Positions 4,321 to 46,800 of a stretch of DNA of 46,800 bases are shown here, piece by piece. Position 1 is the stretch's first letter. Each line of letters begins with the position of its first letter. The stretch is from Candidatus Thermoplasmatota archaeon (GTDB lineage: Archaea > Thermoplasmatota > E2 > UBA202 > DSCA01). The DNA lies in contig JAYEJS010000020.1 in the NCBI GenBank assembly GCA_034660695.1, positions 1 to 46,800 on the forward strand. The letters run 5' to 3'. The position numbers and the translations under genes are program-made. Under the pieces are notes generated by a model. That model was not told the DNA's origin. It was given only the letters and a program-made list of their open reading frames with translations, and searched no databases.

Positions 4321-5421
4321 CTATACCTCATATCCCATCTCTGCAAGCTTTTCCGGCAGATATTTATCTGTTACGTAATCCAGGCCGTACTTCGCTAAAG
4401 CCTGCTGTTCCGACTTCTTTTTCATTTTAAGCTGCAGTTTTATCTCGCTCTCCCAGAAATCATCGCGGAAACGGGGATCGGAAAGTTCCGCCTTCAGGGC
4501 GGATACGTCTTCATTCGTAAGGTCATCTGTTGGCAGTTCGTAGTTAAGAATGTCTGATGGTGTTATCCCTAAAAATTCTGCAGAAGGTGTTGCAAGGTAT
4601 TCTGAAATGTGTGCGGTTTTTATTGCCCCGTATGCAACCGAGGCAAATATGCGATATGACCATGGATCACCATCTGTAAATACGATAATGGGCAGCTTTT
4701 TTTCTTCATTGAGCCTTTTTATGAATCTTCTTGTTGAGCGTGCCGGTTGTCCCTTGAGATGGACGAGTATGGTGTTTTTGTTCTCATCAAACCCGTTTTC
4801 TACAAGTCGGTCAAACATACCGCCAGTTTCCACAGCCATTACAATTTTGGCGTTCGTTCCTTTGATCTTTAATTTTTCTTTTTCCACGTTATAAGGTATG
4901 GAGTAGCCGCTGTCACCAACATCATCCTGGCAATGTATTATCCTTTTTTCTCCCTTTCTGGTTATTTCTTCTATTACCAGATCGCCCATCACTCTTGCTC
5001 CGTCCTCCTCCGGCCTAAGACTCATGTCCTCTCTCAGTTTCTTTGTAAGTATTTCTAGGTCTTCTGCAAGTCGGTCGGAATCGCCCTGTGAAGAAAATTT
5101 TCCTTCGCCCCATCCTTCCGATATGTAGTACAGTTCTCTCAGAGTTGATGACTTATTTTGTTCTATCATCTTTTTAATAAAATCTATGGTATAAGTGGTT
5201 CTAAGAAGCATGTACGCCCCTGATAAAGATACGACAGAGCGGGTGGACATGTTATTTCCATATTTCCATACCCTGTATTTTCCATCAAATGCGATATTGG
5301 ATTTTGTCCTTGAGGGAACTTTAAGCTCTGGTATCCTCGAGTTGTTAAAATCCTCATATATTTCCTCGGCTATTTTCATCATTTCTTTTACAGCAGCCTT
5401 CTTGCGTTCTGCCATCGTCAT
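4321..5421 (-). CDS. top6A: DNA topoisomerase VI subunit A (Spo11 homologue)
   Basis: The catalytic subunit of the A2B2 type IIB topoisomerase, which passes one DNA duplex through a double-strand break. With the start used here the protein has 366 residues. The 5Y-CAP domain holds the active-site tyrosine in LRELYY (Tyr98/Tyr99). The TOPRIM fold follows with VMAVETGG (Glu198) and FTDGDPW (Asp250, Asp252), the metal-binding acids. An in-frame ATG at 5448 exists, but the ATG at 5421 is preferred because GGGAGGG sits 8 bases before it and the family normally begins near this point. The top6B stop lies directly before it, so the two genes are co-translated. Length and motifs show an intact gene. 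Confidence 0.95.
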
Positions 5422-5422
5422 T

Positions 5423-7291
5423 TTAACTTCCCTCCCATTTCTCGGCACCTATTACATTCACGGGATTAATTCCCTTTACATACAAACTATTTTCATCAAA
5501 ATCTCCTTTTTCCATACCCAATATCTGGAAAGATAACTCTCTCCTCTCCGCAGGCTTTATCCCGTCTATTTTCCACATTATGTACTCCTTATTTACTTCA
5601 CTTACTTCGGGTTTTATTTCCCCAATTTTTCCTTCATCGGGAATGGCGGCATACAACTCAAAACTCTGCATTTTATTTTTGTAATTTGTAATCGAGATGG
5701 TACTGATTATTCTGCCATCCATGTACTGAACTTCATCGTCAATCCAGACGATATTCATTATTTTTATTATGACATCATCTATGGAAGGAACTGGTTTTCC
5801 AAGCATCTCTGAGGATTTCTTTGCAATTTCAGGCAAAATTTTGGAAATGAGCGTAAATTTATTCTTTATTTTCACCTTTTTCTCTTTCTTCGAGAGATGG
5901 CTTTTCATCTTTCTGGCACATTGTTGCAGCGATAGTTTTATCTCTTTCTCTATTTCTTCGACATGGGCAATTGCTTCCTTTGATTCCGACGTGAAAGGAA
6001 TGTTTACTGATGAAACGTGAACCAGTATTATCGCTGGGCCGAATGGAATGCCTTTTCCCCCTCTCTGCTGAAGCCCGTACCTGCGCCACTCCATATTTTT
6101 TATTCCTTTCGTTATAACGCAGTCCCCCTCCTGGTACAGTAAGGGAACTCTGTTTGCAAATCGCAGAATTTCCACTCTCTCTTCCGATGGCAGGTTGCCG
6201 CCATAGACAATGCCCGTCTCGACCAGGAATGGAATGCCGGAATGCACGTCTGGATTTCTCTTATCCGTTGAAATGAATTCGGGCGATATCGCTTCCATCT
6301 CTTTTCTCAATCCTCTCTTTATCAAAATCTCTCCAATCGGGGATAGGCAGTCCGTTGGGGGTGCCATCAATTTTACTTTTTTGAAAGCGTTAACTACTTT
6401 TCTCGCATCTTCTAGGGAAAGGTTATTGGGATTAAGAGAAGGGCTGAGGCCTGCTAACCCGACAATTTTTTTTGCTTTCTGAAGGCTGACGGAGGAAAAT
6501 TCATTTGAAAAGAAGGAGGTGAGTTTTCTTGCTTTTGTCTCTTTGGCCATTTTTATGAATGTCCCGAGCTCTATCCCATACGGGTGGGGTTTTATTTCTC
6601 TTGGCTGCGGCGGTAATTTATCTGTCACTCTTTCGAAAACAGTTCTATTGCCATTGGGTTCAACGAACGTTATTTTGGCATGGGGGTTCACTATGGCCGT
6701 ACTCCTTATATATTCATAAACAGACTGCTTTCTGTTCCTTACATACGTTCCCTGTATTGCCATTTCTATTCTTGTCCCACTGCTTTTTTCCCAGTGCATC
6801 ATATCATTGTATACCGTTTCGGGTCTGTTCGTTTTTGTATCAATAAGAAGACTGCACCGATGCGCCGGAAAACCGTCCCCGATTTTTGATATTACAACAG
6901 TTGGCTTGCCAGTAGTCAGTTGCGAATAAAGGACAGCAGCGGATATTCCTATGCCTTGCTGTCCTCTCGACTGTTTGAGTGAATGAAAGCGGGAGCCGTA
7001 GAGAAGGCGGGCAAAAACATGGGGTATCTGCTTTTTTACTATCCCCGGGCCGTTATCCTCAACGATTATAAGGTACTCGTTATTTTCAATCTCTCTTATC
7101 TCAACAAAGATATCGGGCAATATGCCCGCCTCCTCGCAAGCATCTAGTGAGTTATCAACCGCTTCCTTTACTGAAGTTATCAAAGCCCTGGTCGACGTAT
7201 CAAAGCCCAGTATCTGTTTGTTGCGTTCAAAAAATTCTGCTATAGATATCTTCCTTTGCTTTTTGGCGAGTCCCTCTGCTATAGAATGCAT
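5423..7291 (-). CDS. top6B: DNA topoisomerase VI subunit B (GHKL ATPase)
   Basis: The ATP-driven gate subunit of topoisomerase VI, 622 residues. The Bergerat ATP-binding fold shows the N box [10 protein letters not shown] (Glu43, Asn47), the G1 box VEDNGPGI (Asp79) and the G2 box [12 protein letters not shown] (Gly110-Gly115). A central helix-two-turn-helix region and the transducer domain follow. The transducer part contains [11 protein letters not shown] with the expected ATP-contacting lysine. The C-terminal stretch at about 520-615 is an extra Ig-like segment typical of longer archaeal forms. The gene directly precedes top6A (stop and start 2 bases apart). A TTTTATAAAA box in the 35-base gap upstream suggests that its own promoter drives both subunits. 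Confidence 0.95.
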
Positions 7292-14955: not shown

Positions 14956-15351
14956 TTAAGAAGTTTTGTGTACGGCGTCCCGCACTATCTGCGCATGGTC
15001 AAATGCCAGGGGTGGCAATGCATTCAAATCAAAGAATTTTGTGTCGGATGCATCATCTCCTCCTTTGGGCAATCCTTTTTTGACCGAAAGAAGATAAGCA
15101 ATTGACACTGTATGCCCTCTTGGGTCCCTATCAGGGTCTGAATAAACTCCCAGCAGTGATTGCACGGTAGTTTCAAGCCCTGTCTCCTCCTTCACCTCTC
15201 TCACCACCGCCTCCTCTACCGTTTCGCCATATTCGACGAAGCCGCCCGGCAATGCCCACCGCCCTTTGAATGGGTCATTTTTTCTCTTTATCAGCAGAAT
15301 TTTTTTGTCTTTGATTACCACACCGTCAACCGTGAGTTTTGGAGATTTCAT
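14956..15351 (-). CDS. Nudix hydrolase (ADP-ribose pyrophosphatase-like)
   Basis: A 131-residue Nudix protein. The Nudix box G-x5-E-x7-REVKEETGL runs from Gly37 to Leu59 without change, giving the Mg-binding helix that splits nucleoside diphosphates linked to another moiety. WALPGGFVEYGE directly before it and the segment GVYSDPDRDPRGHTVSIAYL after it are typical of the ADP-ribose pyrophosphatase branch. The substrate is inferred, not certain. An in-frame TTG lies at 15360, but a TTTTTATTT box near 15376-15388 puts transcription start close to 15356, so the ATG at 15351 is the better, leaderless start. Confidence 0.9.
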   Translation of the reverse strand: MKSPKLTVDGVVIKDKKILLIKRKNDPFKGRWALPGGFVEYGETVEEAVVREVKEETGLETTVQSLLGVYSDPDRDPRGHTVSIAYLLSVKKGLPKGGDDASDTKFFDLNALPPLAFDHAQIVRDAVHKTS

Positions 15352-15524
15352 GGTATGCAATTATCTTGGCAAATAAAAATGCAACCCCTGTTATTTGAGT
15401 AAGCAAAGACTGCAGTCAAAAACTCTATAGTTCTATACTTTTGTTCTTATTAGATTATACTATACTAAACTATGCAACAAATGAAAAGTTTAAGAACCAA
15501 ATCGCGATACCATTATGTGAGAAA

Positions 15525-15980
15525 ATGCCCGTAATAAGAATATCGGAAGAGCTTTATGGGACTATAGGGAAATTGGGATATGGCCACGAAAAGGTAGAAG
15601 ATATCTTGTGGCGAATATTAAAATACACAGATATAACAAGACTAATAGAAGATCTGACAAAGGACAGAGCAATCTCTATAGAGCCACCTGTAAAAGAGTA
15701 TAAGGGGGGCAAAAAAATCTTGGGGAAAAATAAACTGGATAAATTACTTATAGGGATAAAATTGCGACATAAATTCAGAGATAAGTTCGGAGATGGGAGA
15801 ATTGTTTATGCTACGGTAAAGGATGGCTATATCCTTTTCGAGGGAGAAAAATACTCATCTCTATCAGCTGCTGGTTCTAAAGCAGCGGGATATTTAGTTA
15901 ATGGGTGGAAGTTCTGGGAATACTATGATGAAGATGCAGGGGGATGGAGAAAAGTAGATGAATTCAGGAAGAGTGAATGA
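15525..15980 (+). CDS. RAMA/DUF2924-like domain protein with antitoxin-like N-terminus
   Basis: A 151-residue protein of two parts. The N-terminal 40 residues (MPVIRISEELYGTIGKLGY) resemble the strand-helix-helix starts of archaeal VapB-like or DUF7557-like proteins. The last 65 residues read IVYATVKDGYILFEGEKYSS, then LSAAGSKAAGYLVNGWKFWEY. This is the pattern of the small RAMA/DUF2924 beta-alpha domain found with restriction-modification and mobile elements and thought to bind modified DNA. The open frame extends upstream to 15441, but residues before MPVIRIS fit no domain and GTGAGAAA precedes this ATG. The gene stands just before the operon that ends in mre11-rad50 but has 130 bases between, with a separate promoter. 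Confidence 0.65.
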   Translation: MPVIRISEELYGTIGKLGYGHEKVEDILWRILKYTDITRLIEDLTKDRAISIEPPVKEYKGGKKILGKNKLDKLLIGIKLRHKFRDKFGDGRIVYATVKDGYILFEGEKYSSLSAAGSKAAGYLVNGWKFWEYYDEDAGGWRKVDEFRKSE

Positions 15981-16070
15981 AAAAATTTGTAAAGCGTTTT
16001 CCCGAGCTTGTATATTTGGTATATTAAATATATTATAGATAAATAGTATAATAAAGATAAAAAAGATAAA

Positions 16071-16080
16071 ATTTATATAT
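16071..16080 (+). promoter_or_regulatory. TATA box of the unknown-genes/mre11/rad50 operon
   Basis: ATTTATATAT lies in a very AT-rich stretch that follows the RAMA-like gene. An archaeal start point about 26 bases downstream falls near 16101, a few bases before the first ATG (16112). No other strong TATA element is seen between here and rad50, and gene junctions further on overlap or are short, which supports a single promoter for the whole block. Confidence 0.5.
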
Positions 16081-16111
16081 CCTAAACGTTATTCAGTATT
16101 GGTTGGATAAA

Positions 16112-16759
16112 ATGAATAAGAAAAAAGATGAAGAGAACGAACTTGAAAATAAAGAGCCTGAATTGAAAAATATTAAGGTTACAATGGCAGTAAAAAATTG
16201 GCTTGATGGACATGGGAATAAGGGCGAGACTTACGATCAGATATTGAGACGATATTTACTTCACGAGGGGAAACACAGTAATTTGGAGGATAAAATTGAA
16301 ACGTGTGCAAAGGAAAACAAGATAAACAAATGGAAAATCGGACCGAACAACTACCGTAATATTGCCGGATATATCTACAACATTGGCTATGAAAATGATG
16401 ATGTGGAGGTGACCATCCGAAAAGGTATTATGGGTATGGGTAACAACTGGCTTTGTTACACTGTGAATGGTGTAACATTTGCTAAGATAAGTCCACAGTG
16501 TGATAGTGTTTCCGTAGCATGGCTTGCTGAAATAGAAGGTAAATTAGTTTGGCGAGGTCCTTTCCCACTACGCAAAAGTGATGATTTCGATTTTCGTTTT
16601 TATAATGAATTTTCAGATGATATAAGGAAAGCTTACCGTCTTGCAAAAAGTATAGTAAACGGATTGGGGGATAGATATATTGCTCTTGTTAGTAAGATAA
16701 CAATGATAGAGGAATCCATTAGAAAACTTCAGGGTGAATTAAAAACAATAAAAAGGTGA
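16112..16759 (+). CDS. Unknown protein, first gene of the mre11-rad50 block
   Basis: A 215-residue protein. After a charged 25-residue start comes NIKVTMAVKNWLDGHGNKGETYDQILRRYL, which resembles the short strand-helix-helix module of archaeal VapB-like/DUF7557 proteins. The middle (about 65-165) is a mixed alpha/beta segment with no family I recognise (WLCYTVNGVTFAKISPQCDS). The end is a coiled coil (about 180-215). The track-long TTG start at 16103 is possible, but the ATG at 16112 is preferred. The stop TGA overlaps a GTG of the following gene. It is the first gene after the TTTATATA promoter. A DNA-binding or adaptor role is only a guess. Confidence 0.6.
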   Translation: MNKKKDEENELENKEPELKNIKVTMAVKNWLDGHGNKGETYDQILRRYLLHEGKHSNLEDKIETCAKENKINKWKIGPNNYRNIAGYIYNIGYENDDVEVTIRKGIMGMGNNWLCYTVNGVTFAKISPQCDSVSVAWLAEIEGKLVWRGPFPLRKSDDFDFRFYNEFSDDIRKAYRLAKSIVNGLGDRYIALVSKITMIEESIRKLQGELKTIKR

Positions 16760-16767
16760 AAAGTGAA

Positions 16768-17526
16768 ATGAAGGAAATAACATTAAAGGTTGTTGAAGCC
16801 CCTCCACAAGACGTGAGATCTGGAAGGGTAAGGTTATCTGAAAAGGTAGCAGCAGAACTTGATATATCCTACGGAAGTATTGTTGAAATAGAGGGTAGTA
16901 AAAGAACTGGTGCAGTGGTATGGAGAGCCCACCCGATAGATGAGGGAAAAGGAATAATCAGGATAGACAACTTCACTAGAAAGAACGCTGGAATTGAAAT
17001 AGGGGACAAGGTAATAGTTAGGAAAATAGTTCCCAAAACAGCAAAAAAAGTGGTAATGGCTCCGGCAATTTCTCAGGGGCAGAAAATCCAATTCAGGCAG
17101 GACATAGAACATTTAGTTAAAAGAGGACTGCTGAAGAGGCCCGTGAGTATGGGAGACACAATCGTTATACCCGGCATAGCTTTATTCGGGAATAGTTTAC
17201 CTTTCTCTGTGTGTTATACAAAACCAAGAGGAATTGTAGCTATTACAGGAGAAACAAATGTTGTTGTTAATAAGGAGCCTGTGGAATATCCATTCCAAGT
17301 ATCTGGGAAAGACGAAATTAAGATTTTGGAGAAATTTATCAAGGAAAACCCAAAATTAGATAAAAATGTAATAGTGGCAATACAACAATTAATTCCTATC
17401 ATAAAACGCTTAAAAGAAGTGAGGAAAGATGCAGAAAGAATAAAAAAGGATTCTATTGATTTATGCACCAGAATGGATATGCTATTAGAAACATTAGACT
17501 ATCCGGAGGATGATAAAGATGAATAG
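16768..17526 (+). CDS. Stand-alone Cdc48/VAT N-terminal domain protein without AAA ATPase
   Basis: A 252-residue protein whose first 170 residues align end to end with the N domain of Cdc48/p97/VAT. The double-psi barrel half is marked by VEAPPQDVRSGRVRLSEKVA, GSIVEIEG, GKGIIRIDNFTRKNAGIEIG and DKVIVRKI. The second (CDC48_2) half has KKVVMAPAISQGQKIQF, LLKRPVSMGDTIVIPGIAL and GETNVVV. In VAT the chain would then enter the D1 AAA module. Here it instead ends in about 80 residues of charged helix and no Walker motif exists. N domains bind substrates and cofactors, so this may be an adaptor or a competitor of the real Cdc48. The ATG at 16768 follows GGTGA; a GTG at 16756 overlapping the previous stop is an alternative. 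Confidence 0.85.
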   Translation: MKEITLKVVEAPPQDVRSGRVRLSEKVAAELDISYGSIVEIEGSKRTGAVVWRAHPIDEGKGIIRIDNFTRKNAGIEIGDKVIVRKIVPKTAKKVVMAPAISQGQKIQFRQDIEHLVKRGLLKRPVSMGDTIVIPGIALFGNSLPFSVCYTKPRGIVAITGETNVVVNKEPVEYPFQVSGKDEIKILEKFIKENPKLDKNVIVAIQQLIPIIKRLKEVRKDAERIKKDSIDLCTRMDMLLETLDYPEDDKDE

Positions 17527-17905
17527 TGCCGATAAGTTTGAATTTTTTGCATCCGAGAAAAGGAGAAAAGGCAAACCCAAAGATTTTTTATCTGAGCTAG
17601 CAGATAAAATAGATGTAGTCATACTGAAAAATATTCAAAAACAGTTAAAACTTCCAGGTATGTCAAATTGGATCTCGAAGTATTATGGTAGGTTGCTTTC
17701 ATTACTTATGGATGAAGTTCCTCACAATTATGAAAGAGTTTTTCTCGAACCAGAAGAATTAGTCAATAATCTAGAGAAACTAGAAATGATAAAAGAGAAT
17801 CTATCCCTTATCATGATAAGTTGTATAGGCGTGGCGAAAACCCTTAAAATAGATCTTCATAATTCTCTTGTGGAAACATTGAAAAGAATTGAGGGGGATT
17901 GTTAA
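17519..17905 (+). CDS. Unknown helical protein
   Basis: A 128-residue protein predicted to be all helical, rich in Leu, Lys and Glu, with a basic N-terminus (SEKRRKGKPKDFLSELADKI). No family is recognised. The ATG at 17519 is chosen over one at 17510 because GGAGG ends 9 bases before it. This start overlaps the last codons and stop of the Cdc48 N-domain gene, so the two are translationally coupled and are likely to act together. The next gene starts 32 bases after its stop, again with a GGTGG ribosome binding site, in line with one operon. Confidence 0.6.
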   Translation: MNSADKFEFFASEKRRKGKPKDFLSELADKIDVVILKNIQKQLKLPGMSNWISKYYGRLLSLLMDEVPHNYERVFLEPEELVNNLEKLEMIKENLSLIMISCIGVAKTLKIDLHNSLVETLKRIEGDC

Positions 17906-17937
17906 GTTGCTTGGGTTTGATCATATAAGGTGGTATC

Positions 17938-18342
17938 ATGTCGAGAAAAGCAGGTTTAAGTAAAAGGGCAGGGAAGAACTCAGTAAAAGAGGTGTTAGAA
18001 TTAGGTTATTTAGGGGTGAAAATAATGGATGATAATGACAGAAAATTTTTTACAGAAGAAAAGAAAAGAATAATAGGAATTTACAGAGCATGTGAGAAAG
18101 AGCAAGAGAGATTATCCAAAGAAAAGGAGATTAGCCCTGAATTGGACATTGACAGGCTTATAGACAACGAGCATCACAGGATTGGGCTGAAAAACTTTTA
18201 TGGGGCATTTGGCATTAATTCGCACTTTTATAGAGGAGGATATGAAATAAACGACAGGGAATTCATTGAGCAAATAAAGATAGGGCTGGCAAAAGAACTT
18301 GTGGGGATAGTAGAAGAAGAACTTGAGTGGGGAGAAAAATGA
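17938..18342 (+). CDS. Unknown protein overlapping mre11
   Basis: A 134-residue protein. The start is basic (MSRKAGLSKRAGKNSVKE). The centre is charged and helical (EEKKRIIGIYRACEKEQERL), and the end has GLKNFYGAFGINSHFYRGGYEINDREFIEQI followed by an acidic tail. I do not recognise a family; it is not HerA or NurA, the usual neighbours of mre11-rad50. Its TGA stop overlaps the mre11 ATG (ATGA), and GGTGGTATC precedes its own ATG. This coupling makes it a candidate accessory factor for the Mre11-Rad50 complex, which is an inference from context only. Confidence 0.65.
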   Translation: MSRKAGLSKRAGKNSVKEVLELGYLGVKIMDDNDRKFFTEEKKRIIGIYRACEKEQERLSKEKEISPELDIDRLIDNEHHRIGLKNFYGAFGINSHFYRGGYEINDREFIEQIKIGLAKELVGIVEEELEWGEK

Positions 18343-19442
18343 AAATTCTTCATGTGGCTGATACGCACATAGGCTATTCGGCATACCATAAAGTTAATGA
18401 TAACGGGCTTAATCAGCGGGAAGTGGATGTCTATGACGCATTCAAACAATTTGTTGATTATGCAATCGAAAAAAAGCCGGATTTAATCGTCCATTCCGGT
18501 GATTTATTCGATACGGTTCGGCCTACAAACAGGGCTATAACCTTTGCCCTCCAGCAAATCATAAGAATATCCAATGAAGGCATACCCATGGTTATACTGT
18601 CTGGAAATCACGAAACTCCCAAATTGAGAGAGACGGGAAGCGTATTCAGGATTTTCGAGCATCTTGATTGCATATACCCCGTGTATAAAGGGGCATATGA
18701 GAAATATGAATTTGATGATGTTACGGTGCATGCAATACCTCACTGCAGTACTGGAGATGATCTAAAAAGAAATATAGAAAACCTGGAAATAAGCAAAGGC
18801 AGCTTCAATTTGCTTATGATGCATGTTGGTGTGGCTGGCGTAAAAGAATTTCGGACCGGGGATTTCAACGAGCAGGTTATACCAAGCGGATACCTCTCCC
18901 CCGATTTTGATTACATCGCTCTGGGGCACTACCACAAAAAAACGAGGGTTGCAGAGAATGCATATTACTCCGGTTCGACAGAGCATCTCTCGTTCAAGGA
19001 GGCTGATGAAGGGAAGGGATTTTTTGAGATAGATACTGCAGGTAACACGGTAAATTTCATTCCTTTGAAAATCAGGGCCATGCTGGACGTCGGCGTCATC
19101 GATTGTTCTTCCATGACATCTGATGAGATAAGTGATGAAATCGTTGGGCGGCTGAAAAACGTTGGTACGGAAGGAAAGATTTTAAGAATAACCCTGAGGA
19201 GGATAGGCAGGAACGTATACAAAGGGCTAGATTTTCATGCAATCAGAAAAATAGCATCTAATGTAATTCACTTTGAACTTTCATACGAACTTAAAGAAAT
19301 GGAGCAGGAGTTGGTGAGCAAGGGAAGCATCGGCTCTCTTATGGAAGAATGGAAAGATTACATCTCTAATATCGCCATTGATGGCAAAAGAGAGGAGATA
19401 GAGAAAATCGCCCTTAAATATCTCTCAGAGGTGAGCAGTTGA
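18339..19442 (+). CDS. mre11: DNA double-strand break repair nuclease Mre11
   Basis: A 367-residue nuclease that, with Rad50, trims DNA ends before recombination. The metallophosphoesterase motifs are all present: ADTHIG (Asp8, His10), HSGDLFD (Asp55), SGNHE (Asn90, His91), MMHVG (His162) and LGHYH (His197, His199). The capping domain and the C-terminal Rad50-binding helices follow. The start is the ATG at 18339 inside the ATGA overlap with the preceding unknown gene; a longer frame from 18327 has a non-ATG start and is not needed. The end overlaps the rad50 start. The herA and nurA genes commonly found beside mre11-rad50 in archaea are absent here. Confidence 0.95.
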   Translation: MKILHVADTHIGYSAYHKVNDNGLNQREVDVYDAFKQFVDYAIEKKPDLIVHSGDLFDTVRPTNRAITFALQQIIRISNEGIPMVILSGNHETPKLRETGSVFRIFEHLDCIYPVYKGAYEKYEFDDVTVHAIPHCSTGDDLKRNIENLEISKGSFNLLMMHVGVAGVKEFRTGDFNEQVIPSGYLSPDFDYIALGHYHKKTRVAENAYYSGSTEHLSFKEADEGKGFFEIDTAGNTVNFIPLKIRAMLDVGVIDCSSMTSDEISDEIVGRLKNVGTEGKILRITLRRIGRNVYKGLDFHAIRKIASNVIHFELSYELKEMEQELVSKGSIGSLMEEWKDYISNIAIDGKREEIEKIALKYLSEVSS

Positions 19443-21850
19443 AGCTGCATTCGTTAGTGCTCCACAACTACAGAAAATTTAAGCATGCCGAGATAGAATT
19501 TCCGGATGGCATTACGGGAATTATAGGAAACAACGGCTCGGGGAAATCCACCCTGATAGAGGCTGTCGGATGGGCGATATACGGCAATAAAGTTGCCCGC
19601 ACCAATAAGGAAAACATAAAAAGACAGAATGCAAATCCCAGTGAGGAATGCTGGGTTAAACTAACATTCGAGATTGGAAGAGATGTTTATGAAGTCACCA
19701 GAATAATGGGAGGCAGTTCTCTTTTAACAGATGCAAATGTTAAAATTAATGGATTGGTGGCCGCCTCCTCCGCCACGGGCGTCACCCAGCTGCTGGAGAA
19801 AAAAATAGGAATGGATTATGACGCATTTTTTACATCGCTGGTTGCCCGTCAGAAGGAAATAAATGCACTTTCGAGCAAGACCCCCGGGGAGAGGAAAAGG
19901 AGCATGCTGAGAATGCTGAAAATCGATGCCATTGAAGATGCTGTCAGGAAAGTCAGAGAGGATAAAAAGGAAAAGGAAAATGTTGTGGAGGGGATGAGGT
20001 CCGCTCTCAAAGATATCGATGGATTGAAGGAGGGCATGAATGAAGGTAAGGCAAAAAAGGAGGAATTGTCTTCTAGGTTGCATGATGTAGAAAGTGCCAT
20101 TTCATCACTTGAAAGCAAGGCCAGGGGGCTGGAAGTTAGGAGGGATAGGGAAAGGAAAAAGTTTGAGAGGTACAATGGATTGGAGAAGGAAAGGGAATTG
20201 CTTGATGAGAGGATAAAATCAAAGGAAAGGCAGATGGAAGAGAAAGAGAAGGAAAAAAATGAGCTTAAGGAGAAGAAAAGCAGATACGGGCAGATAGAGC
20301 CGCTGGAAAAGGAATACGACAATGTTAAGAAAGAAAAAGAGCGGATGGAAAAAGTGAGGGATAGATATCTTTCCCTAAAGAAATTGAAAGAGGATATGGT
20401 CAACCTTCAAAGCGAGGTTAAGAAACTGGATGATACTATTGCAGAACTTGAAGAAAAATTAAAGGAAAGAAAAAAAATAGCGGATGAACATGAATCGTTA
20501 AAAGCCCAGGAAAAAGCGCTTGCAGAGAAAAAAAGGGAGACAGAAAGTTCGATAAAAATAAAGAATGTTCAGATAAAGGCATCGAATGAAAGAATGGAAG
20601 AGTCAGAAAAAGAAAGAAAAAAAATAGCGGAAAGAGGGCCAGAGAGCAGTTGCCCCACGTGTGGCAGGCTTTTGAAGGACAGATATGAAAAAATACTCGA
20701 AAATTTTGCGAAAAAAGTAGAAATCGAGAAAAAAAAGATAGAAGAATTTATGGCAGAGCGAAACTCTCTCGAAAATAAAATTGTTGAAACTGATGCAGAA
20801 AAAGAAGCATTGAAGGAGAAAACGGAAGAGGTTGAAAAATTGATGGACGAAACGAAAAAAATGGAGCAGAAGTTGATTTATGTTGTTGAAAACAAAAAAG
20901 AAAAGGAGAAAAAAATAGAAGATAATAAAAATAAAATTGACGGAATGGGCGAGATAGAATTCGATGAGAAGGCGTATGAAGAGCATGGAAAAAAGGTTGG
21001 GAAACTGCTGCCGATAAAGGAGGAGATAATCGTTTTGAGAAGCGAAATTAAAAAGCTGCCGGATGTGGAAAAGCATATTTCTCAATTAAGGGAGGATATA
21101 GATGTGCTGGATAAAAGAAGGAGCGATATATATCATGAAATCGAAGAACTGGACTTCGACAAACAAAAGTATGAAATCATCGAGAAAAAATACGAAGAAA
21201 AAAGAAACGAATTGCAGAAAATGCGGGAGGAAAGAATACACATCGCCGGGAAAATTGGTCAGATAAACTCGGAACTTGAAAGAATTGCAAGGGAAATAAA
21301 TGAGCAGAAAGAAATGGAAAATAAAATAAAGGAATTGAGAAAGGAAATACAGCAGTTGGACATGCTTGCAGGTGACCGCGACACGGGTCTTCTCAATGAT
21401 TTCAGGAGGTATCTCATATCAAAAATTGGGCCCACGCTTTCGTATTATGCTTCCAATTTCTTTAACGTGTTTACCGCCGGAAAGTACAGCCAGATAGAAG
21501 TGGATGACAACTACGACATATACATCTACGACGATGGGGAAAAATTTGGTGTAAATCGCTTTTCAGGGGGGGAAGAAGACTTGGCAAATTTATCTTTACG
21601 CCTTGCCATTTCTCAGGTTATAGCACAGCGTTCCGGCAATCTTGAATTCAATTTCATAGTACTCGACGAAATTTTTGGTTCCCAGGATAATGAGAGGCGA
21701 ACCAATGTTTTGAGTACTCTGGGAGAGTTATCACATCAATTCCAGCAGGTTATACTCATCACGCACATAGAGGAAATAAAAGATGCCATGCAATATGTGA
21801 TAAGAACCTTTGAGGATGAGGAAGGCGTATCTCACATAAGGATTGAGTGA
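19439..21850 (+). CDS. rad50: DNA double-strand break repair ATPase Rad50
   Basis: An 803-residue SMC-like ATPase. Walker A is GNNGSGKST at residues 30-38. Two long coiled coils flank the zinc hook CPTC at about residues 405-408. The ABC signature FSGGEEDLANLSLRLA lies near residue 707, and Walker B with D-loop IVLDEIFGSQD near 738. It is slightly shorter than the usual 850-900 residues, with shorter coiled coils. The start codon is TTG at 19439, in the TTGA overlap with the mre11 stop; GAGGTGA upstream is its ribosome binding site, and the protein start MKLHSLVLHNYRKF is the family norm. It forms the Mre11-Rad50 complex with the preceding gene. Confidence 0.95.
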   Translation: MKLHSLVLHNYRKFKHAEIEFPDGITGIIGNNGSGKSTLIEAVGWAIYGNKVARTNKENIKRQNANPSEECWVKLTFEIGRDVYEVTRIMGGSSLLTDANVKINGLVAASSATGVTQLLEKKIGMDYDAFFTSLVARQKEINALSSKTPGERKRSMLRMLKIDAIEDAVRKVREDKKEKENVVEGMRSALKDIDGLKEGMNEGKAKKEELSSRLHDVESAISSLESKARGLEVRRDRERKKFERYNGLEKERELLDERIKSKERQMEEKEKEKNELKEKKSRYGQIEPLEKEYDNVKKEKERMEKVRDRYLSLKKLKEDMVNLQSEVKKLDDTIAELEEKLKERKKIADEHESLKAQEKALAEKKRETESSIKIKNVQIKASNERMEESEKERKKIAERGPESSCPTCGRLLKDRYEKILENFAKKVEIEKKKIEEFMAERNSLENKIVETDAEKEALKEKTEEVEKLMDETKKMEQKLIYVVENKKEKEKKIEDNKNKIDGMGEIEFDEKAYEEHGKKVGKLLPIKEEIIVLRSEIKKLPDVEKHISQLREDIDVLDKRRSDIYHEIEELDFDKQKYEIIEKKYEEKRNELQKMREERIHIAGKIGQINSELERIAREINEQKEMENKIKELRKEIQQLDMLAGDRDTGLLNDFRRYLISKIGPTLSYYASNFFNVFTAGKYSQIEVDDNYDIYIYDDGEKFGVNRFSGGEEDLANLSLRLAISQVIAQRSGNLEFNFIVLDEIFGSQDNERRTNVLSTLGELSHQFQQVILITHIEEIKDAMQYVIRTFEDEEGVSHIRIE

Positions 21851-44323: not shown

Positions 44324-44345
44324 GCAGAGTTTGGATGTTTTGATA

Positions 44346-44777
44346 ATGGAAAGAGTAGGTAGGTATAGGGATAAATTAAATTTGATATCTAAAAGGGCGG
44401 AGGAAATAGAGAAATGGATAATGGGCTATACGAGAGAAAAATTTGTTGGGGATGAAAAAACTAAATTAGCTGTTTATAAGGCATTCCAGGAGATTGTTGA
44501 GGCTGAAATGGATGTAATTGCCATGATATGCAAAGATTCTGGATTGGCACCGAAAGACGATTATACCAATATAGAGGCTTTAGAAGATAACGGGATTATT
44601 GATGAGGGAATGAAATCTTTCCTTATCGGATCAAATGGTTTAAGAAACAGGTTGGTGCATCTTTACAATAAATTGGATGATGTCATAGCGTTTAAAGGCA
44701 TAAAGGAATTGATGCATGTACCGAGAGCATTTGTTAAAATGGTGGAAGGATGGATAGCAGCAAAATTAAGAAAATAA
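44346..44777 (+). CDS. HepT-type toxin (DUF86 family RNase-like)
   Basis: A 143-residue all-helical protein. Its active-site motif RNRLVHLY (R-x4-H-x-Y) is the mark of HepT (HEPN superfamily) toxins, thought to act on RNA and to be controlled by AMP addition from the MNT partner. VYKAFQEIVEAEMDVIAMICKD and the ending PRAFVKMVEGWIA are also typical. A TTG at 44331 could give a longer chain, but the ATG at 44346 is preferred. The end overlaps the start of the nucleotidyltransferase gene by 28 bases, in the usual toxin-first order. Confidence 0.85.
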   Translation: MERVGRYRDKLNLISKRAEEIEKWIMGYTREKFVGDEKTKLAVYKAFQEIVEAEMDVIAMICKDSGLAPKDDYTNIEALEDNGIIDEGMKSFLIGSNGLRNRLVHLYNKLDDVIAFKGIKELMHVPRAFVKMVEGWIAAKLRK

Positions 44778-45133
44778 AGAAAGATTTTAACTTCTTGCAC
44801 GAGCGAGTAATGGCTGTTCTCTTATTTGGCTCTTTTGTAAAAGGAGAAGAAAGCACGAGAAGCGATGTTGACATATGCATTATTGCCCCCTACGAAAAGG
44901 ACAAAATAAACTTTTTAGGAGAGATTATGTCAAAAACCTGGGGATACGATGTGAGGCTATTTGAACTGATGCCGTTGTACATGAAGATGGAAGTTATAAA
45001 AAACCATAAGATTATTTATGCAAGAAATATCAGTGAGTTGTATGAGTATTTCTATTTTTACAGGAAGTTGTGGAAAGACCAGGAACAAAGGCAAAGAATA
45101 ACTAAAGAAGAGGCGATACGCCTTTTTGAATGA
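44750..45133 (+). CDS. MNT-type minimal nucleotidyltransferase antitoxin
   Basis: A 127-residue nucleotidyltransferase. The core LFGSFVKGEESTRSDVDICI contains the GS-x10-DxD motif that binds Mg-NTP. From studies of HepT-MNT pairs, the enzyme attaches AMP units to a tyrosine of HepT and so inactivates it. The gene overlaps hepT by 28 bases, and GGTGGAAGG lies directly upstream of its ATG. The frame appears intact, so the pair is probably working. A C-terminal helical stretch (FYRKLWKDQEQRQRITKE) completes it. Confidence 0.88.
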   Translation: MDSSKIKKIKKDFNFLHERVMAVLLFGSFVKGEESTRSDVDICIIAPYEKDKINFLGEIMSKTWGYDVRLFELMPLYMKMEVIKNHKIIYARNISELYEYFYFYRKLWKDQEQRQRITKEEAIRLFE

Positions 45134-45152
45134 AATTGCATTCATCTGCAAG

Positions 45153-45162
45153 TTTTATAAAA
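45153..45162 (+). promoter_or_regulatory. TATA box of the AbrB/PIN pair
   Basis: TTTTATAAAA is centred about 26 bases before the ATG at 45183, giving a leaderless message. This is the basis for choosing that start over the upstream open frame from 45126. Confidence 0.6.
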
Positions 45163-45182
45163 TAAGAATTCCTTATATTTTT

Positions 45183-45458
45183 ATGGAAACTTACGTTAGT
45201 AAAGTAACAACGGCTGGTCAGATAACTCTTCCCAAGACGTTGAGAAAATTTCTTAAAGTGGAAGATGGGTCATTCATTCAATTTGAAAAAGTCGGTGATG
45301 CGATAGTTCTAAGGAAGCTAGATGCTGAAGAGCATATTTTGGCTTCTCTCAAAAAAAAGATCAAAAAGAGCGGTGTCACCAAAGAAAAGATTGCCGAACT
45401 AATTGAAGAATCATCGAAAGAGGCTTGGAAGGAGACTTATGCTAAGGATTTTTCTTGA
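45183..45458 (+). CDS. AbrB/SpoVT-type antitoxin (VapB-like)
   Basis: A 91-residue protein. The swapped-hairpin AbrB fold is recognised from YVSKVTTAGQITLPKTLRKF and DGSFIQFEKVGDAIVLRK. The helical tail (KIKKSGVTKEKIAELIEESS) would bind a PIN toxin. AbrB-type antitoxins repress their own promoter. The start at 45183 is leaderless by TATA spacing. The 3' end overlaps the first codons of the PIN toxin, the normal VapBC arrangement. Confidence 0.85.
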   Translation: METYVSKVTTAGQITLPKTLRKFLKVEDGSFIQFEKVGDAIVLRKLDAEEHILASLKKKIKKSGVTKEKIAELIEESSKEAWKETYAKDFS

Positions 45459-45817
45459 TGCGAGAAGGAAATGAATCTTTACTTCTCGAATGTGGAAAGT
45501 TAAGATTGTGCAAGCTTTGTTCAAACAAATACGTATTGAAAGAAATAGAGAAAGTTCTTCACAAGCTTGGATTAAATGATGAAGAAATCCCTGAGACATT
45601 AACCTACTTATTTAGGTGTGTAACGATAGTAGAAGATCCATTGTATAGTGAGATTAAAAGCGCTTTTGAAGTACTCAACGATAAAAAAGATGCGCCAGTT
45701 TTGGCTGGAGCGTTAAATTTTGATTACTTCGTTACCGGAGATAAAGAATTATTGAGACACAAAGAAGCGAGGGCTGTGAATGCAAGAATCATACTCGAAA
45801 AATTGGGACTGCTCTAA
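45439..45817 (+). pseudogene. PIN-domain toxin (VapC-like) with broken N-terminus
   Basis: The toxin should begin at the ATG at 45439 inside the antitoxin gene, where one frame reads MLRIFLDA, the normal start of a PIN domain, but meets TGA at 45472. The rest is in the next frame (open from 45458 to 45817): ESLLLECGKLRLCKLCSNKYVLKEIEKVL, then DAPVLAGALNFDYFVTGDKELL, the third and fourth acidic regions of PIN. Between LDA and LLLEC a normal PIN has about 15 residues; here there are about 5 codons, so roughly 30 bases and the frame are lost. If made from 45458 the protein lacks its first catalytic Asp and would probably be inactive. Confidence 0.65.
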
Positions 45818-45860
45818 TTTGTACGAATCATTTTTCTTGTCTGAATATAATGAAATCTAA

Positions 45861-46010
45861 GCGAGAAAACCCAGACCTTTAGGTTTGGGATGAATCGCCT
45901 CTTTCATATCACTCACAAATGCGCCAGAACCCGTTAAACGATCCACTCCGGCAGAGTAAGCAGGAATAGGTCTCAATCTCGGAAGAAACAAGTGGATGGG
46001 ATTGATAGAA
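45861..46010 (+). mobile_element. Possible IS200/IS605 (tnpB) right-end relic
   Basis: The hairpin CCCAGACC-TTTA-GGTTTGGG (45870-45889), extended by GCGA and TCGC on its flanks and followed by ATGAATCGC, closely resembles the hairpins at the right ends of archaeal and bacterial tnpB-type elements (the 3' part of the guide-like RNA). Downstream, the frame to the stop at 45957-45959 reads APEPVKRSTPAE, like the ends of some TnpB proteins. No transposase or left end exists here, and the order of hairpin and coding-like tail is unusual. It is best seen as a small decayed remnant or a solo RNA element; the extent is uncertain. Confidence 0.35.
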
Positions 46011-46061
46011 CAATCTCTCTGAATTTTCTACATATACAACAGAAGAAAAAATTACAATAAG

Positions 46062-46070
46062 TTTTATATA
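46062..46070 (+). promoter_or_regulatory. TATA box in front of a hairpin transcript
   Basis: TTTTATATA is one of the best TATA-like sites in the window and has no protein gene in front of it on this strand. A start point about 26 bases downstream falls near 46092, ahead of a long hairpin. Confidence 0.5.
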
Positions 46071-46091
46071 CCCTTGTTATATTGTAGATTT

Positions 46092-46167
46092 TGAGAATAA
46101 ATTACCGTATGGTGGAACGATAGTTCTTTAGGTCGTATGACCCACCATACGGGTGATATTATTTTTT
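46092..46167 (+). ncRNA. Candidate small structured RNA
   Basis: An 11-bp perfect stem, CCGTATGGTGG (46105-46115) with CCACCATACGG (46142-46152), encloses a 26-base loop in which ACGAT and GTCGT can add a second 5-bp stem with a 10-base terminal loop. A strong TATA box ends 22 bases before the predicted start, and a run of six T (46162-46167) follows the stem, as at an archaeal terminator. The T run also encodes the lysines at the end of the convergent NYN gene, so the 3' ends overlap by about 10 bases. It does not look like a C/D or H/ACA RNA and is not a tRNA. Confidence 0.45.
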
Positions 46168-46764
46168 ATTTATATTAGGTTTCTGTTCTATTTTATCAAT
46201 ATAATCATCTAAAAATATAGTAATATCTGAGTTATATTTATAAACGTGTGAAAGTGTACTTTTGAATGATACAACATGTATTTTCTTTCCTTCCCTCTTT
46301 CTAAGCATTTTGACAATTGGTAAAAAATCTTGGTCACCAGATACTAAAATCCCTTCATCATAGGTATCACAAATATCTAACATTGTAGAACCAAGCAATA
46401 TATCAATTTTTTTGGATTTATGTGGTGGAAGACTGATAACTGCCCCACAATTATCGCATTTTGGTTCAACTACAGTTTTGCAATTTGGGCATATCAATTG
46501 TCGTTCTCTCTCTACAATTGGTTCTTTAATGACAATTATCCCTCTACGTTCCAATGATTCAAAAAATCTTGATTGACCTTCATTTTCTGGATTTTCTGGA
46601 GTGAAATAATATGTATGAACTATATTATTTTCACAAAACATTTCTGTTAAAAGTGAAATTAGATTCTCTGGTCTTACCTTTATATTATATAAGTTACGTG
46701 CAGATATGTATATATTAGATGAGTCAATAAAAATGAATGTTTTAGGCAAATATTTATCAGTCAT
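46159..46764 (-). CDS. NYN-domain (LabA/DUF88-like) nuclease with inserted zinc ribbon
   Basis: A 201-residue protein of the NYN family, a PIN-like fold. The start TFIFIDSSNIYISARN carries the first acidic residue, and ILLGSTMLDICDTYDEGILVSGDQDFLPIVKML carries the others (D-I-L and SGDQDF). A zinc ribbon, CPNC-x8-CDNC, is inserted at about residues 90-105 between the two halves. NYN proteins are predicted or shown to be RNA nucleases; the natural substrate is unknown. The ATG at 46764 follows AGGTGG at the usual distance, so it is preferred to the GTG at 46773. It converges with the small-RNA candidate. The gene's promoter lies beyond the window edge. Confidence 0.85.
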   Translation of the reverse strand: MTDKYLPKTFIFIDSSNIYISARNLYNIKVRPENLISLLTEMFCENNIVHTYYFTPENPENEGQSRFFESLERRGIIVIKEPIVERERQLICPNCKTVVEPKCDNCGAVISLPPHKSKKIDILLGSTMLDICDTYDEGILVSGDQDFLPIVKMLRKREGKKIHVVSFKSTLSHVYKYNSDITIFLDDYIDKIEQKPNINKK

Positions 46765-46800
46765 TATAGCCACCTGTGATGAATGTAAAGCCCTATTAGT

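Follow-up and report, generated by a model that had tools for sequence, protein, structure and literature searches.

A Cdc48 N domain without its motor upstream of mre11-rad50 in a Thermoplasmatota archaeon: partly copied from the resident Cdc48 and possibly an accessory protein

Introduction

Could the N domain of Cdc48 exist in an archaeon as a protein of its own, and what would such a protein do without the ATPase? This question is raised by a gene located upstream of mre11 and rad50 in a stretch of 46,800 nucleotides (positions 1 to 46,800 of contig JAYEJS010000020.1, hereafter called the window) from a Candidatus Thermoplasmatota archaeon (GCA_034660695.1), whose genome comprises 1.63 Mb in 164 contigs and is 99.6% complete. 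The original prediction held that this gene encodes a Cdc48 N domain followed by a helical stretch, and that the product may feed, sequester or compete for cofactors of the true Cdc48, or bind repair proteins, with a link to Mre11-Rad50 drawn from gene coupling. The N domain is the docking place of most p97 cofactors (PMC4192671). In VAT, both the ATPase and the unfoldase activity rise when the N domain is removed, which means that this domain holds the unfoldase back; what the N domains of VAT do physiologically was described as unclear in 2017 (PMC5423775). The substrate choice of archaeal Cdc48 is poorly known, and proteins that consist of the N domain without AAA modules (hereafter N-only proteins) bear on it.

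The N-only protein of the window

The features of the locus are listed in Table 1. Residues 5-173 of the window protein form a complete Cdc48 N domain, as had been foreseen for both of its halves. The matches to the two Pfam families are above the Pfam cut-offs and cover positions 1-83 of 85 in the CDC48_N model (E 2.8e-27) and 1-63 of 64 in the CDC48_2 model (E 1.6e-13). The nearest solved relative by sequence is the N domain of VAT from Thermoplasma (VAT-N, PDB 1cz4; E 2.7e-34), and VAT-N also ranks first when the predicted structure is searched with Foldseek (E 3.4e-16). In the AlphaFold model, the pLDDT of the N domain is mostly 92-98, with one block at 84, and the linker at residues 175-179 is unreliable. 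A ribosome-binding-like site, GGTGA, is present at 16755-16759, 8 nt 5' of the start codon.

Table 1. Coordinates (in the window) of the N-only gene, its parts and the neighbouring genes.
Feature	Position	Strand	Remarks
Nudix hydrolase	14956..15360	-	Ancestrally adjacent to mre11 in the family
RAMA/DUF4357-like protein	15526..15980	+	Most upstream block member; start ATG 15526 picked by eye
218-aa protein	16103..16759	+	First gene of the likely (predicted) transcript; no family match
Cdc48 N-only protein	16768..17526	+	252 aa, ATG start at 16768
Double-psi barrel half, CDC48_N (PF02359)	16780..17028	+	Residues 5-87, Pfam
C-terminal half of the N domain, CDC48_2 (PF02933)	17089..17286	+	Residues 108-173, Pfam
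New tail	17287..17523	+	Residues 174-252, ~79 residues
Small helical ORFan	17519..17905	+	About 128 aa from ATG 17519; GGAGG at 17505-17509
Small ORFan, 134 aa	17938..18342	+	Stop overlaps mre11 start (ATGA)
mre11	18339..19442	+	Single copy; kept in relatives without the block ahead of it
rad50, CPTC zinc-hook motif	19439..21850	+	

As also expected, the chain lacks the AAA module. No AAA family was matched in the Pfam search of the protein, and D1 and D2 of the resident Cdc48, when compared with the whole window by tblastn, gave a best E of only 0.083; no AAA remnant was found in any frame. Against the NCBIfam full-length CDC48 model the protein scores 134.8, under the cut-off of 802.65. Since the D1 and D2 rings are absent, the protein has no ATPase. 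It had been considered that the missing AAA part might follow in frame after a sequencing error; this explanation was rejected, because neither the tblastn search over the window nor a profile of 73 full-length Cdc48s recovered such a part. Instead of the rings there is a tail of about the length and helical character that had been anticipated, for which a flexible linker, a helix at residues 180-193, a long helix at 199-242 and an acidic end are predicted. The Cdc48 profile matches the tail marginally (10 of 300 shuffled sequences score equally high), and neither this comparison nor the tblastn search with D1 and D2 detects any derivation of the tail from the Cdc48 AAA module. A search for solved relatives of the tail returned none.

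The FGxG loop of the N domain is altered. Of 82 full-length Cdc48s of the VAT type, 81 retain its two glycines, which are replaced by R110 and D112 in the window protein, and by R/E and S/D in the N-only proteins of DHVE2 described below. The loop presumably corresponds to the stretch of p97 near I126 and T127. The p97 changes I126F and T127A are listed among disease mutations, and such mutations are situated exclusively at the N-D1 interface (PMC5131264). It would make sense, by analogy with p97, if the contact were expendable once D1 is gone, and the glycines were perhaps shed because no D1 ring was left to contact. It should be noted that the overlap in glycine loss between the two Thermoplasmatota N-only lineages is not significant in itself (p 0.16) and that the motif was chosen after seeing the data, so that the loss is only a hint. 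The shared loss was dropped as proof of convergence for the same p value, and also because the full-length proteins of haloarchaea do without the motif in any case.

Origin and evolution of the N-only gene

The only other gene with a CDC48_N domain in this genome encodes an intact full-length Cdc48 of the VAT type, located on contig C12. A divergent full-length Cdc48 paralogue (34-42% identity), which occurs in one genome of the same family (G001) and in many genomes of the order, was not found here. The N domains of the window protein and of the resident Cdc48 are 72% identical and can be aligned without a gap across 174 residues, with the reading frame intact. The N-domain tree puts the window protein inside the clade formed by the Cdc48s of its order (support 92/87). 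Its branch is long, at 0.55 as compared with about 0.04-0.09 for the full-length proteins of its family. This placement, together with the 72% identity, indicates that the gene was copied in part from the local cdc48 and is not foreign. Judged from its sequence, the window protein is thus a partial, lineage-specific paralogue that goes back to the VAT-type Cdc48 of the same organism, of which the N domain was copied without the AAA rings; the helical tail was presumably gained. In this lineage, the N-only protein is recorded from one assembly, and no counterpart was found in 59 relatives.

The substitutions are not spread evenly over the N domain. Changes occur in 39 of the 115 columns that are variable in full-length Cdc48, and in 7 of the 59 that are invariant (p 0.002 by Fisher test and 4e-6 by rank test). 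The changes thus spare what full-length Cdc48s conserve, and the fold is kept. The dN/dS of the window protein ranges from 0.15 to 0.74 by topology and greatly exceeds the value for N domains of full-length proteins (p about 4e-6); in codon models it is indistinguishable from 1 on the best topology, so that the gene could be a drifting copy. In a neutral simulation of stop codons, the probability that none would arise was 0.16, a value too high to be informative. Given its fast evolution, the gap-free alignment and the placement of its changes, we take the product to be folded and, by prediction, expressed, with a constraint that has been relaxed or altered.

A second N-only copy seemed to occur in another genome (G003:C5, L004), and was rejected, since it is an ordinary full-length cdc48 frameshifted after IIFI in D1. 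The split is probably an assembly error, and a count of short Cdc48s would wrongly include this gene.

The gene block upstream of mre11-rad50

The N-only gene is the third in a five-gene block (about 15526-18342). It is preceded by the genes for a RAMA-like protein and a 218-aa protein, and followed by those for two small ORFans. A TATA-like AAATTTATATATCC is located at 16069, ahead of the 218-aa gene, and the first of the two ORFans overlaps the stop of the N-only gene. By eye, the N-terminal stretches of the 218-aa protein (IRISEELYG...) and of the RAMA-like protein (IKVTMAVKNWL...) are alike and resemble a ribbon-helix-helix; in the latter protein the C-terminal part is RAMA/DUF4357-like, and DNA binding is therefore conceivable for both. 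The structure model of the 218-aa protein is poor (pLDDT 40). A search of 80 genomes of the class found no relative of the tail, of the 218-aa protein or of either small ORFan. When used alone as query against 99 relatives, the RAMA-like protein gave two weak matches, which are confined to its C-terminal part.

The block ends in an ATGA junction, where the TGA of the 134-aa ORFan (18340-18342) overlaps the ATG of mre11 at 18339. The gene coupling on which the link to Mre11-Rad50 had been based is therefore real here, and co-translation with mre11-rad50, the single and conserved core pair of this genome, is likely. The functional tie, by contrast, found no support. Two genomes of the same family are readable at this place, and the block is absent from both: in G001 the nudix gene faces mre11 directly, and in G002 pyrK and a small gene precede nudix, which is separated from mre11-rad50 by a short frame unrelated to the block. 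From these gene orders, the block would most simply be a local insertion. Its proximity to mre11-rad50 is most likely incidental and not a conserved partnership, and we infer that it yields co-expression at most.

Elsewhere in the window, the genes for the two subunits of topoisomerase VI are adjacent on the minus strand (4321-7291). A toxin-antitoxin-like cluster recognised by Pfam is found at 44331-46773, with a HepT-like protein and a nucleotidyltransferase, a MazE-like protein and PIN_2, and an opposing NYN-domain gene.

Other N-only proteins in archaea

N domains lacking AAA modules were searched for in 293 Thermoplasmatota genomes (a family search, in which multi-copy genomes were followed up) and in plasmid records. 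Among the matches listed for the 293 genomes, N domains are joined to AAA modules almost everywhere. One exception is an N-only protein of DHVE2, encoded in isolate S142_16 (WAOD01000021.1:2502-3242; L085) and in a second species, G298 (L178:7955-8692). The two proteins are 81% identical including a new tail, which is unlike that of the window protein, and both genes are convergent with cas2-cas1-cas4-cas3 (cas names read from the sequences). When the window protein and the DHVE2 proteins were forced into a single clade, 92.5 log-likelihood units were lost (AU p 5e-8); with a shared clade rejected, the N-only architecture must have arisen at least twice.

In addition, N-only proteins annotated as hypothetical are encoded on plasmids of Haladaptatus halobius (WP_227380369.1, 198 aa, L184:3989-4585) and Halobacterium salinarum (pKBTZ03_58; WP_338756434.1, 174 aa, L185:3986-4510). 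Their N domains are complete or nearly so and much more diverged than that of the window protein, and their genes have unrelated neighbours, near a recombinase, a PIN-domain gene and an AbrB-type gene. Further N-only proteins do exist, then, but mre11-rad50 was not seen next to any of the DHVE2 or plasmid genes; as far as homologues exist, their neighbours are cas genes or unrelated genes, which counts against the predicted link.

The short frames in G017, G020, G071, G090, G126, G147 and G217 proved to be ordinary Cdc48s, either full or truncated by contig ends or frameshifts. In other Thermoplasmatota, short proteins of 110-145 aa that match CDC48_N weakly resemble other double-psi-barrel proteins, which we take to be FwdD-like, and were left uncounted. 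A literature search on standalone archaeal Cdc48 N domains found no description, which is not proof of novelty. In the genomes searched, motor-free Cdc48 N domains are recurrent but apparently rare.

Possible functions

We suggest, with a probability of about one half, that the window protein is an ATPase-free accessory of Cdc48, an adaptor or a decoy, similar in layout to Ufd1. This reading is based on the complete VAT-N fold and the close, gap-free relationship to the resident Cdc48 with changes gathered at tolerant positions; on the independent origin of the same layout in DHVE2, where it is kept in two species, and its presence on haloarchaeal plasmids; and on the activation of VAT by N-domain removal (PMC5423775) and the binding of cofactors to the N domain (PMC4192671). 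Inferring from the family, the N domain could plausibly bind substrates or cofactors of Cdc48. The free domain would bind the same ones as the N domains of Cdc48 itself, and the tail might hold a partner, self-associate or dock on Cdc48. As an adaptor, the protein would deliver what it has bound to Cdc48, like Ufd1; as a decoy, it would keep substrates or cofactors off the ring and so limit access to the unfoldase. These two versions cannot be told apart by sequence. Against an accessory role of either kind count the tail, in which neither a Cdc48-docking motif (by eye) nor similarity to a solved structure was found, the dN/dS that would also suit a drifting copy, and the record from one assembly in this lineage.

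Three other explanations should be weighed. The window protein could be a repair factor that brings Cdc48-type substrates or cofactors to breaks with Mre11-Rad50, given the shared strand, the tight spacing and the ATGA overlap, which make co-expression with mre11-rad50 likely in this genome. Cdc48 can be important in archaea when DNA is damaged: in Haloferax, Cdc48a associates with a nuclease complex of RecJ3/4 and aRNase J, and recovery from damage is poor in the cdc48a mutant; the main text of that study makes no mention of Mre11 or Rad50 (PMC10470531). However, with the block missing upstream of mre11 in both readable relatives, no orthologue in 59 relatives and other neighbours beside the independent N-only proteins, such a role is improbable. 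The gene could also be a relic, namely a broken cdc48 duplicate that drifts without function, with the small neighbours possibly being debris of D1. The elevated dN/dS would fit this, as would the weak and nearly gap-free alignment of the 134-aa ORFan with the resident D1 (Smith-Waterman p 0.004). Yet this pairwise signal vanishes against the profile of 73 Cdc48s, for which 55 of 300 shuffles score as high, and the other small ORFan likewise receives no support, so that the ORFan was rejected as a decayed D1. The frames are moreover open and free of indels, ribosome-binding sites are present and the changes are gathered at tolerant positions, and we regard a relic as unlikely.

Alternatively, the block could be a small mobile or defence-type island, with the N-only protein as a decoy taken from the host, by which the Cdc48 of the host would be inhibited or redirected to the benefit of the element. 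Its GC and GC3 are below those of the genes on both flanks, ORFans and a RAMA-like protein accompany the N-only gene, and other N-only genes adjoin cas genes or sit on plasmids. On the other hand, no integrase, tRNA or convincing flanking repeat was found at the block; neither the N-only protein nor two further block proteins had a match in phage records or IMG/VR; viral, phage and genome-contig scans with block proteins or the tail returned nothing; and the N-only copy derives from the host's own order. An island of this kind is accordingly rather doubtful.

With an accessory of Cdc48 as the preferred reading, a wider view may tentatively be offered as a possibility: ATPase-free N-domain proteins could be recurrent and unrecognised regulators of archaeal Cdc48, Ufd1-like adaptors or decoys that are repeatedly copied from the resident N domain, shed the FGxG glycines, gain a tail and are often associated with defence genes or plasmids. 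With at least two origins in Thermoplasmatota, evolution keeps the domain after the loss of the motor, and these natural N-only proteins are ready-made tools for the direct pull-down of N-domain binders.

Comparison with known systems

Among known proteins, VAT-N is the one that the window protein resembles most, in both fold and sequence. It differs from full-length archaeal Cdc48 in having no D1 and D2, in its new helical tail, and in R and D in place of the FGxG glycines. The DHVE2 N-only proteins likewise combine a Cdc48 N domain with the absence of AAA modules, and differ in their independent origin, their tail and their cas neighbours; those of haloarchaea are shorter and far more diverged. 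The haloarchaeal Bac (bacterio-opsin associated chaperone) is also an archaeal Cdc48 paralogue with a long branch and a particular gene cluster, and has been proposed as a co-opted one (PMC1885257). However, Bac is described as an AAA-ATPase with conserved linkage (PMC1885257), whereas the window protein lacks the ATPase and its linkage is not conserved.

A parallel in layout is eukaryotic Ufd1, which has a Cdc48-N-like double-psi-barrel domain, no AAA module and a C-terminal extension; its UT3 domain has an architecture in common with the p97 N domain, to which a docking tail is added (PMC4192671). In the tail of the window protein, no SHP/BS1-like or FxGxG-type Cdc48-docking motif was seen by eye, and the UFD1 family of Pfam is not matched at E up to 1. 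Unlike Ufd1, the window protein originates as a recent copy of the resident Cdc48. The N-only proteins of Thermoplasmatota also illustrate, in archaea, a route by which Cdc48 itself could give rise to adaptors of the Ufd1 kind.
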